Notes under the pieces: model-generated
What the model saw: only the letters and a program-made list of their open reading frames with translations
Databases searched by the model: none
What the model was told of the DNA's origin: nothing
Made by a program: the position numbers and the translations under genes
Origin: an uncultured Candidatus Saccharibacteria bacterium
GTDB taxonomy: Bacteria > Patescibacteriota > Saccharimonadia > Saccharimonadales > Saccharimonadaceae
Length of the DNA: 33,081 bases
NCBI GenBank assembly: GCA_947367795.1
Contig: CANBER010000010.1
Coordinates: 1 to 33,081, forward strand
Direction: 5' to 3'
Shown here: piece by piece, positions 1 through 33,081 of the stretch
Position numbering within the stretch: position 1 is the stretch's first letter
Layout: each line of letters starts with the position of its first letter

Positions 1-160
1 GAAGTCGAGGTAGTACGCGGCAGCAGAAGTAACAGAGGTGAACGCCACAGAAATTAAGCTCCATCCGTAACCATTGATGCCGAAGCCCCTCAGAGAACCG
101 CGGCCCAGATAGACGACCCCACTACGAACGAAGGATAGAGGAGGTGAGGCTATATTATAT
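1..160 (-). repeat. Variable cassette A (orphan FISUMP/lectin-like C-terminal fragment, cut by window edge)
   Basis: Read on the minus strand from 132 downward, this encodes FVRSGVVYLGRGSLRGFGIN followed by GYGWSLISVAFTSV and SAAAYYLDF, then runs off the window. It belongs to a seven-member family found here (A-G). There is no start codon, ribosome site or N-terminal domain. The left flank (133-160) carries the block CCTCTATCCTTCGTTCG preceded by an AT-rich TATAATATA, shared with copies C, E and F. The domain assignment (end of a FISUMP-type, C-type-lectin-like fold) is by recognition of the GYGWSS...GFPIRC pattern and has not been searched. It lies upstream of the dnaE promoter. Confidence 0.8.
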
Positions 161-16964: not shown

Positions 16965-18356
<1,392 letters not shown>

Positions 18357-18364
18357 CTGGCCCC

Positions 18365-18589
18365 TTCGTCCGTAGTGGAGTTATCAATTCACGCTTCAGT
18401 AGTCTCAGATATGCCGGCATAGCTAGCTTCGGTTGGGAATCCGCTGCCGGCCCATTCACTAGTGTCAGCTCCACTGATGCATACTATAGTAACTTCGATG
18501 ACAGTAAGGTTCACCTATCAAACGGCCCACACGGTCGTATCACTGGTTTCCCCATCCGCTGCCTAGCCTATTAGTTTATATATAGTACT
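18365..18589 (+). repeat. Variable cassette B (complete, divergent core)
   Basis: Seventy codons: FVRSGVINSRFSSLRYAGIA, then SFGWESAAGPFTSV..., ending RITGFPIRCLAY and TAG at 18572-18574. The core has diverged from A/C/D/G at all codon positions, yet the 3' end (CTAGCCTATTAGTTTATA and on to 18589) is nearly identical to that of copy D. It has no start codon and begins 8 nt after the obg stop, with the left flank block missing. A hairpin follows at once. Confidence 0.85.
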
Positions 18590-18590
18590 A

Positions 18591-18635
18591 AGTCAAGCAC
18601 CAGCATGATCATTTTTATAACTCTAGTGCTTGACT
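18591..18635. repeat. Hairpin between cassettes B and C
   Basis: AGTCAAGCAC (18591-18600) and GTGCTTGACT (18626-18635) are perfectly complementary, with 25 bases between. The stem directly follows the conserved 3' flank of cassette B. Copy D is likewise followed by an inverted repeat. Confidence 0.75.
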
Positions 18636-18638
18636 ATA

Positions 18639-18867
18639 TTTATAATATTAATCCTCACCTCCTCTATCCTTCGTCCGTAGTGGGTACGCCAATCTGTACG
18701 ACGGTTCTCTGAGGTACTTCGGCGTCAGTGGTTGCGGCTGGAGCTCAATCTCTGTGGCGTTTACCTCTGCTACTTCTGCTACCGCGTACGACTTCTACTT
18801 CGTTGCGTCTGACGTCTATCCGTCGCTCGGCCCGGACCATCGTTGGTACGGTTTCCCCATCCGCTGA
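18639..18867 (+). repeat. Variable cassette C
   Basis: The left flank has TATAATATTAATCC and CCTCTATCCTTCGTCCG. The core (18670-18867, 66 codons) encodes FVRSGYANLYDGSLRYFGVS, GCGWSSISVAFTSATSATAY and ends HRWYGFPIR-TGA. Against copy D it differs, by my hand count, at about 38 bases over 65 codons, about 33 of them in codon positions 1 or 2. It ends at codon 66, where B and D continue with CLAY-stop. Confidence 0.88.
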
Positions 18868-18942: not shown

Positions 18943-18988
18943 CAAACACGAAGTTTTGTATCTTAACAATATGAATGGAGGAAACAGT

Positions 18989-19658
18989 ATGCAATCTAAA
19001 AGCAGAATGGTTATTATGGGGGGGTCCATGAAAAACCTCCCACTGGACAAATGATCATCTTGGCAATCCAACACCTCTTCGGAATGTTCGGCGCGACCGT
19101 GCTGGTACCGATCTTAGCCAATCAGGCCGCCGGTGCTGAAGTCTGGTCGATTGGCGTTGTGTTCACTATGTCCGGCGTTGGCACTTTGATCTATCATCTC
19201 TGTACTCGTGGCAAATCTCCCGTCTACCTTGGCAGCTCATTTGCTTTTATTGCACCGATGGTATCAGTATACCTTGCTGCTGGCGTGGGTGCTGCACAGA
19301 TCGGCATGGTTTTAGTTGGAGTGGCCTATATTGTACTGCATGAATAACGCTCAGGGATTTCTCCGCGTTTACTATACCCGGACCAGTCCTCGGCGGCGCC
19401 TCGCTTTTGCTTTATGGCTATATCGCGACTAATGGTCTACGCCGGATTCAGCGTGGTCGCGTCGATTTCGAGAATCCCAAACACGCCATCATCGTCTCAG
19501 CGATGCTGGTAATGGGTCTCGGTGGTGCTATTTGGGGCAAAGGCATGGTCCAGGTTTCCGGCATGAGCATGGCGGCCATCTTTGGTATCGCACTGAACTA
19601 TTTTGTGCCAGATCGTAGTGCAATTGACACACCTGAGCACCATGAGGCCACCAAATAG
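18989..19658 (+). pseudogene. uraA: Uracil/xanthine permease (NCS2 family) remnant
   Basis: Three pieces of one permease can be read. The start (ATG 18989 after GGAGG) runs out of frame at a run of seven G (19018-19024); adding one G restores MGGVHEKPPTGQMIILAIQH and the typical IQHLFGMFGATVLVP. The second piece (from 19051) ends at TAA just before 19350, after the PVYLGSSFAFIAPMV region. The third (about 19381-19658) is the C-terminal end (GGASLLLYGYIATNGLRRI, NPKHAIIVSAMLVMGLGGAI) with no intervening transmembrane helices. Roughly the middle 200 residues of a normal 400-450-aa permease are missing, so a deletion plus frameshift has inactivated it. The pieces keep good codon use, so decay looks recent. 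Variable cassettes B and C lie directly upstream. Confidence 0.88.
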
Positions 19659-20840: not shown

Positions 20841-21069
20841 ATCCTTCGTCCGTAGTGGGAGCGTCAATCTGGGCCTCGGTTCTCTGAGGGGCTTCGGCAT
20901 CAGTGGTTACGGCTGGTCTTCATCCTCTGTGGCGTTCACCTCTGTTACCTCTGCTACCGCACGCAGCTTCCTCTTCAATGCGTCTGGCGTCGGCCCGTCG
21001 GGCGGCCCGGACGGTCGTTGGCACGGTTTCCCCCTCCGCTGCCTAGCCTATTAGTTTATATATAGTACT
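20841..21069 (+). repeat. Variable cassette D (complete)
   Basis: The core 20845-21054 has 70 codons: FVRSGSVNLGLGSLRGFGIS, GYGWSSSSVAFTSVTSATAR, SFLFNASGVGPSGGPDGRWH, GFPLRCLAY-TAG. Conserved flank TATCCTTCGTCCG lies before it and TTTATATATAGTACT after it, as in copy B. An open frame from 20641 covers it, but its upstream part crosses the terminator, so no real gene is implied. A nested inverted repeat (21078-21192) separates it from the convergent copy E. Confidence 0.88.
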
Positions 21070-21077
21070 TGTAATTC

Positions 21078-21192
21078 ATGTCTAAGCTGCTATCAGGATT
21101 TCCAAGAACGGCGGGTGAGCCATCCGAAGTTGTACTCTTTCGAGTATACAACTTCTGATGTTCATAGAAATCCTGATAGTAGCTTAGATGTA
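21078..21192. repeat. Nested inverted repeat between cassettes D and E
   Basis: Outer arms 21078-21103 and 21167-21192 are complementary over 26 bases with a few mismatches (core AAGCTGCTATCAGGATTTC). Inner arms CATCCGAAGTTGTACTC (21121-21137) and GAGTATACAACTTCTGATG (21142-21160) form a second stem. It could extrude a cruciform or act as a long hairpin. It sits exactly at the 3' ends of two convergent cassettes. Confidence 0.85.
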
Positions 21193-21440
21193 TGATATCA
21201 AGCATTCTAGCTAGGTAGCGGAGGGGGAAAGCGCGCCAGCGTCCTCCGGATCCATCAGACGGGTAGACATCTGCATCTGTGAGTGCCATGCGGATTGCGG
21301 AAGCCCATGATGACACAATGAAATCGCCTGTAGACGAAGCTATGAGATAGCCGCTATATGCAGTAAATCTTAATGAGCCATACTCATTGAAAATATTTCC
21401 ACTACGGACGAAGGATAGAGAGGGTGAGTGTATATTATAA
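21193..21440 (-). repeat. Variable cassette E (divergent core)
   Basis: Minus strand from 21412: FVRSGNIFNEYGSLRFTAYS, GYLIASSTGDFIVSSWASAI, RMALTDADVYPSDGSGGRWR, AFPLRYLAR, reading on past the usual stop into the inverted repeat. The left flank CTATCCTTCGTCCG and a TATAATATA upstream match copies A, C and F. The core is diverged from the A/C/D/G group. It lies downstream of the pilin gene, beyond its terminator. Confidence 0.83.
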
Positions 21441-28908: not shown

Positions 28909-29135
28909 TCGGCGGATGGGGAAACCAGTCCAATGATCGTTAAGGCCGCTGGATGGGTTGGAGCCGGAGTCATTGAAGCCAAAAACATATGCAGTAGCAT
29001 AACTAATGGAAGTATATTCGATGGCTGTTGATGTCCAGCCATAGCCATTGATCCCGAAGGCACGCATGGCACCTTTTCCGAGGTAGATATACCCACTACG
29101 GACGAAGGATAGAGGAGGTGAGAGGTATGTTATAG
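28909..29135 (-). repeat. Variable cassette F
   Basis: Minus strand from 29106: FVRSGYIYLGKGAMRAFGIN, GYGWTSTAIEYTSISYATAY, VFGFNDSGSNPSSGLNDHWT, GFPIR, 66 codons like copy C. The left flank CCTCTATCCTTCGTCCG and a TATAAC-like AT-rich stretch match copies A, C and E. It differs from the A/C/D/G group also at third positions, so it is older or came from another template. The AT-rich flank doubles as the promoter region of the next gene, whose TATAGT box (29131-29136) lies on the other strand. Confidence 0.87.
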
Positions 29136-32900: not shown

Positions 32901-33081
32901 TTCGTCCGTAGTGGACTCGTCTCTCTGAGCCACGGTTCTCTGTGGTACTTCGGCATCAATGGTTACGGCTGGAGCTCAACCTCTATGGCGTTCCCCTCTG
33001 TTATTTCTGCTACCGCGTACTACCTCCACTTCTATACGTCTGGCGTCAACCCGTCGCTCGGCCTGGACTCTCGTTGGGGCG
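32901..33081 (+). repeat. Variable cassette G (cut by window edge)
   Basis: FVRSGLVSLSHGSLWYFGIN, GYGWSSTSMAFPSVISATAY, YLHFYTSGVNPSLGLDSRWG, continuing out of the window. The left flank is truncated at TTCGTCCGTAGTGG. It belongs to the close A/C/D/G group: against copy C I count about 33 differing bases, about 30 in codon positions 1 or 2. It lies 40 bp beyond the duplicated tRNA end. Confidence 0.86.

Follow-up and report, generated by a model that had tools for sequence, protein, structure and literature searches.

Silent 3′-terminal cassettes throughout a Saccharibacteria genome as probable variable repeats of a trans-acting diversity-generating retroelement

We consider it probable that the bacterium studied here keeps the variable repeats of a trans-acting diversity-generating retroelement (DGR) as silent 3′-terminal modules throughout its genome, and that the cores of these modules are exchanged with one expressed surface protein. 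The sequence data support a DGR with adenine-biased change, startless cassettes constrained as protein, a full-length target gene, and an exchange of cores between fixed ends. The window, that is the whole stretch of 33,081 nucleotides analysed, is contig C10 of an assembly of 860,540 bases in 38 contigs, and the reverse transcriptase (RT) of this genome has its closest named relatives in uncultured Candidatus Saccharibacteria.

The window holds seven copies of a repeated unit of about 195 bases, labelled A to G (Table 1), the seventh being additional to those described in the initial annotation. That annotation had proposed units with common flanks around differing cores, and the alignments bear this out. 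Comparison of the cores of B and D over 166 nt gives 50% identity, yet both end at the same 3′ border, and the next 30 nt after the unit (TGCCTAGCCTATTAGTTTATATATAGTACT) are identical in both and reach past the stop codon. Cassettes A, C, E and F have a common upstream block (TTCGTTCG in A, CACCCTCTC in E), preceded in all four by a TATAATAT-like stretch (TATAACAT in F). Similarity of cassette F to other units stops at the unit border (CCGC). The tight packing between genes that had been described is correct for the start of B behind obg, but in F, on the minus strand, the end close to the murE stop is the 3′ end and not the start.

Table 1. Coordinates of the repeated units and their shared flanks in the window (contig C10) and of the reverse transcriptase on contig C9
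Feature	Position	Strand	Description
Cassette A	1..132	-	TR-like class; truncated by contig start
5′ flank of A, ATATAATATAGCCTCACCTCCTCTATCC	133..160	-	same as the coding sequence (YNIASPPLS) that the probable expressed gene has 5′ of its variable repeat
Cassette B	18365..18559	+	diverged class-2 core; open frame; without start; 8 nt past obg stop
3′ shared flank of B	18560..18589	+	same as that of D; runs past stop codon to AGTACT
5′ shared flank of C, TATAATATTAATCCTCACCTCCTCTATCC	18641..18669	+	
Cassette C	18670..18864	+	TR-like; differs from template at 9% of non-A and 47% of A positions
Cassette D	20845..21039	+	TR-like; differs from template at 4% of non-A and 58% of A positions
3′ shared flank of D	21040..21069	+	same as that of B
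Cassette E	21218..21412	-	diverged class-2 core; tail-to-tail with D
Cassette F	28912..29106	-	class-2 core; 3′ end 12 nt from murE stop
Cassette G (additional seventh copy)	32901..33081	+	truncated by contig end
Reverse transcriptase	C9:33781-34929		PF00078 match

Three other features of the window were seen in passing. A 29-bp inverted repeat at 21081-21188 lies between the tail-to-tail cassettes D and E. Just 3′ of cassette C (18987-19658), a uracil/xanthine permease-like gene is split into ORFs of 98 and 83 aa and is probably a pseudogene. The obg gene (16968-18356) contains an element of about 80 bp at 17979-18059, apparently in frame, which is reminiscent of Rickettsia palindromic elements and has copies, 81-83% identical, inside other genes (lepA at L072 1898-1977, L067 5548-5622 and L229 3979-4061).

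A protein search located the family at 84 places in the 860-kb genome. Besides one template and three full-length paralogues, these are about 80 cassettes scattered between genes, of which 54 are complete at both ends and 23 are truncated by contig ends. Cassette translations run PPLSFVRSG...GFPIRCLAY-stop, and complete copies hardly vary over 14 nt at the 5′ end and about 15 nt at the 3′ end; near-invariant unit ends around diverged cores also occur in two relatives. According to flank alignments, the sequences outside the unit (5′ TATAATATAGCCTCACCTCCTCTATCC, 3′ CTAGCCTATTAGTTTATATATAGT) are shared to varying extent, the unit ends are nearly constant, and the borders of the copies coincide, as the exchange of cassettes proposed in the initial annotation would demand. 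Many cassettes have one or both flanks equal to those of the probable expressed gene, none carries the 5′ part of a gene, and the sequence upstream of the shared flank is unrelated from copy to copy. Homology to the template repeat ends at some of the borders. Template-RNA flanks were absent from every cassette examined, and many cassettes carry gene flanks that the template lacks; since the flanks are those of the gene and not of the template RNA, simple insertion of template cDNA is ruled out as their sole origin. The lack of start codons observed in the window extends to the whole genome: from the upstream in-frame stop to the unit, 48 of 53 complete copies contain no ATG and 42 of the 53 no ATG, GTG or TTG, and several cassettes have a stop 1-2 codons upstream of the unit.

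The reading of these units as cassettes overlooked their main engine, since judging by their sequences they are variable repeats of a DGR whose template repeat and RT lie elsewhere in the genome. The best PDB sequence match of the RT is 8ub7 (1.7e-23), from a series that we take to represent the BPP-1 DGR enzyme. The protein has the motifs IGNLTSQ (residues 235-241) and YVDD, the former satisfying the (I/V/L)GxxxSQ pattern in RT domain 4 that is part of the DGR definition (PMC3521204). The template repeat lies directly downstream of the RT, and its variable codons, 14 in number, are AAC or AAT. When 22 TR-like cassettes are compared with the template, adenines are changed at 423 of 836 positions (51%) and other bases at 242 of 3454 (7%; Fisher p about 3e-173), with 1-13% non-adenine differences in individual cassettes; the adenines are replaced by G (177), T (129) and C (117). 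The combination of a template near the RT with adenine-type differences in the variable repeats, another hallmark by which DGRs are recognised, is replicated in the relative G043, which has its own template and the same adenine pattern. A 339-aa ORF that ends at the RT start is conserved at 44-70% in the RT clade and matches no profile of Avd, the DGR accessory protein. A downstream GC-rich hairpin has been described as a requirement for the BPP-1 target (PMC3240598). Folding of the 3′ flanks revealed no such rule downstream of every unit: strong hairpins are found mainly at tail-to-tail units, several pairs of which have long ones, and most 3′ flanks fold weakly. The template RNA has no match in Rfam. 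Its flanks (L052 9057-9064 and 9497-9504) carry conserved and complementary sequences, AAAGATCG upstream and CGATCTTT downstream, whose pairing could close the template RNA; both are invariant in the alignment, so that no support from covariation is possible.

A further 22 cassettes, including B, E and F, form a second class in which 30-46% of the non-adenine positions differ from the template. The mean pairwise identity of these class-2 cores is 43%, with the unit ends still near-identical. Not one stop codon occurs in the 22 cores, compared with about 41 expected (log10 P = -18), the cores differ in length only by multiples of three, and variation is highest at third codon positions. The cassette search does favour open frames, but the effect should be slight, as stops are read through and reported, and from the absence of stops in such diverged cores we therefore infer that they are selected as protein. 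The single template in the assembly does not explain their origin; older or lost templates, or long upkeep as used cassettes, are possible sources.

An expressed-type gene with the same 3′ module, whose absence would have refuted the initial annotation, was found at full length in the relatives G024 and G043 and as two contig-end fragments in the genome under study. The G024 gene (L184) is intact and encodes 593 aa with an N-terminal hydrophobic segment and the cassette module at the C-terminus, so that the variable repeat lies at the 3′ end of a full-length target, as expected of a DGR. Its counterpart in G043 (L198) has the same N-terminal segment and C-terminal module, the contig ending within the repeat. 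In the genome under study the assembly splits this gene: contig C19 breaks off before the orthologous N-terminal part is complete, and the C-terminal part is probably the end of C8, which has the longest shared flanks and an open frame up to the contig boundary. Assembly stops at the end of the C19 fragment because its last 77 bases are also present at the end of C15. At the C15 end in G000 and the C24 end in G024 we also observed a longer, 5′-truncated copy of the expressed gene besides the gene itself, possibly a staging copy. Expression of the full-length genes is inferred from their intact structure, there being no expression or protein data. The target proteins have matches to TIGR02145, with values of 3e-8 and 1.4e-9, that do not reach the curated cut-off of the family. 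An AlphaFold prediction of the G024 domain reached a mean pLDDT of 86 with 46 sequences (36 with 5). Foldseek alone gave no significant match for the predicted domain among PDB structures and viral models; re-alignment of the model ranked Lcl of Legionella best (8q4e, Z 6.7) and the DGR target Mtd second (1yu4, Z 5.5), followed by C-type lectins. These Z scores are middling and the C-type lectin folds were listed by re-alignment only, and the tip of the target is predicted to be FISUMP- or C-type-lectin-like.

The proposal that the units are exchangeable is upheld by cores that recur between unrelated flanks and by flanks that recur around different cores. The core of the full-length G024 gene belongs to class 2 and is unlike any of the five templates of that genome, and it is identical to the core of a silent cassette (G024 C19:7622-7842) over about 205 bases from the TTCGTCC border on, with unrelated flanks. 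Conversely, the 5′-truncated copy of the same gene at the C24 end has about 158 upstream bases and the downstream bases identical and a different core. G043 has two copies of a block of about 290 bases at silent places, with borders exactly at unit ends and a differing neighbouring core. Within the genome under study, several pairs of loci with different flanks have identical 77-mers within their cores, and some cores are half-identical. The 3′ part of cassette A equals that of the cassette at the C34 end, and the 3′ part of G that of the cassette at the C19 end (a 77-mer in each case), with differing 5′ parts; because only the 3′ part is common with another locus, A and G, or their partners, are mosaics. 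Two features of silent-cassette systems are thus present, namely startless partial copies that share their ends with a full-length gene, and exchanged sequence bounded by those conserved ends. The main caveat is that all genomes are metagenome-assembled, with an estimated contamination of 7% for G024, and a mixture of strains could give the appearance of some swaps at contig ends; the silent C19 copy of G024 and the block in G043 lie within their contigs. The suggestion that the cassettes are silent donors for gene conversion was right in kind, but the direction of transfer that it implies has not been demonstrated, because single assemblies do not reveal which way the exchange runs.

Across 99 genomes of the genus, the median number of cassette matches per genome was at least 59 where the RT is at least 63% identical, 5 with other related RTs and 1 without. 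We regard this trend as supportive and not exact, because a query from the genome under study favours its own clade. No unit follows obg in any of five relatives (69 bases examined in G013 and 330 in the others), and cassette positions differ between species and are not conserved. In G024, five dispersed template loci on contigs C1, C2, C6, C9 and C15 (L236 and L240-L243) share one RNA scaffold and have different cores, and several of its cassettes clearly best match one individual template of the five. Some of these template cores look like variable repeats copied back into the template.

Under the mechanism that we propose, the RT would copy the template RNA while randomising adenines, and the product would replace the core that lies between a unit's conserved ends, a step for which the substitution pattern is the support. 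Cores also swap at the same ends, among units as well as between the expressed gene and silent units, as identical cores with different flanks and identical flanks with different cores show. We infer that this exchange takes place by gene conversion or by homing of cDNA into the expressed gene, and that silent units act as donors and not only as archives; donation to the expressed gene, like the direction and enzymology of exchange, remains an inference. In BPP-1, homing can complete when cDNA and target are identical over only 8 bp, and is more effective with at least 19 bp (PMC3240598), so the 14-bp unit end would in principle be enough. The presumed purpose, for which there are no activity data, would be to alter what the protein binds, for example a host cell. 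A bolder extension, which we put forward only tentatively, is a heritable library of binding-site variants: mutagenic copying by the RT writes new silent cores, selection keeps the useful ones, the expressed protein recalls them, and cores can also enter template loci so that the templates themselves diversify, the five G024 templates with their different cores being a case in point.

The main rival, which we think unlikely and cannot exclude, is that the retroelement rewrites only the expressed gene and that the cassettes archive its past 3′ ends and are never reused. It would account for the many cassettes flanked on one or both sides like the probable expressed gene and for the resemblance of each TR-like cassette to one past rewriting event, and a silent copy identical to an expressed core fits archiving as well as donation. 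Unused copies should decay, however, whereas the cores that have diverged furthest contain no stops and vary in length only in frame; the expressed class-2 core of G024 cannot have arisen by rewriting from a template now present, and identical cores are found at several silent loci with different flanks. The openness of class-2 cores, constrained without being template-like, also weighs against regarding the cassettes as by-products, that is, off-target insertions of cDNA or of the gene 3′ end that stay open only through repeated overwriting by the template. The borders that coincide with the end of template-repeat homology would suit such insertions, as would positions that vary between species and the missing unit after obg in the sequence examined from five relatives, but they do not explain why gene flanks are common and template-RNA flanks absent among the examined cassettes, and we hold this origin to be improbable.

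Cassette positions that change from species to species, precise borders next to unrelated flanks, and tandem and tail-to-tail arrays might also point to autonomous mobile cassettes, moved by a recombinase that acts on the conserved ends, with only a secondary link to the retroelement. We give this little credence, given that the cassette-rich genomes are those with this RT clade and that adenine-specific divergence requires an RT. Open frames under purifying selection could finally mean that every cassette is translated separately from an unusual start into a small protein of its own. This was rejected for lack of starts and seems to us barely conceivable: most complete copies offer no candidate start codon before the unit, in several a stop precedes it within one or two codons, and the upstream sequence outside the shared flank is unrelated.

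The preferred reading, in which silent variable repeats exchange cores with an expressed surface protein, joins features of systems that are each well known. Borrelia vls, Neisseria pilS and Mycoplasma genitalium MgPar are examples of antigenic variation from silent cassettes. Like these, the present system pairs a full-length gene with numerous partial copies that lack starts and have variable cores within conserved ends; the same core can occupy a silent and an expressed place, and some copies are mosaics. It differs in that its copies are dispersed among ordinary genes throughout the genome, alone or a few together, and in that an RT writes new variants where the others only reassort. With DGRs such as that of BPP-1 (target Mtd) and multi-target forms such as those of Thiohalocapsa PB-PSB1, it shares the RT motif, a template repeat, adenine-specific variation, a variable repeat with conserved 3′ end at the C-terminus of a C-type-lectin-like target, and a partner ORF adjoining the RT. 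DGRs mostly have 1-4 variable repeats (PMC3521204), and Thiohalocapsa PB-PSB1 has 21 in 15 target proteins, with nine DGR loci in the genome (PMC10907252). Here, in contrast, there are about 80, nearly all without a gene body and many with cores that are not template-like, and the relative G024 has five dispersed templates on one RNA scaffold. The targets resemble FISUMP (Fib_succ_major; PF09603, TIGR02145) surface proteins, of whose domain the cassettes carry only the C-terminal stretch. Both DGRs and silent-cassette systems are known; their combination at such a scale was not found in the papers searched, which cover the literature on CPR and DPANN DGRs incompletely, so that a prior description is not excluded.

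The bacterium thus appears to unite two known bacterial routes to surface-protein diversity. Known DGRs overwrite their target, and a good variant is consequently lost at the next round; silent-cassette systems, to our knowledge, reshuffle and create no new sequence. If our reading is true, doing both would solve the memory problem of DGRs. Saccharibacteria have reduced genomes and, as far as known, live on other bacteria, and this one is probably host-dependent as well; given that way of life, the diversified tip may decide the recognition of host or phage. Storage and recall of hypermutated variants would thereby become testable in a bacterium.
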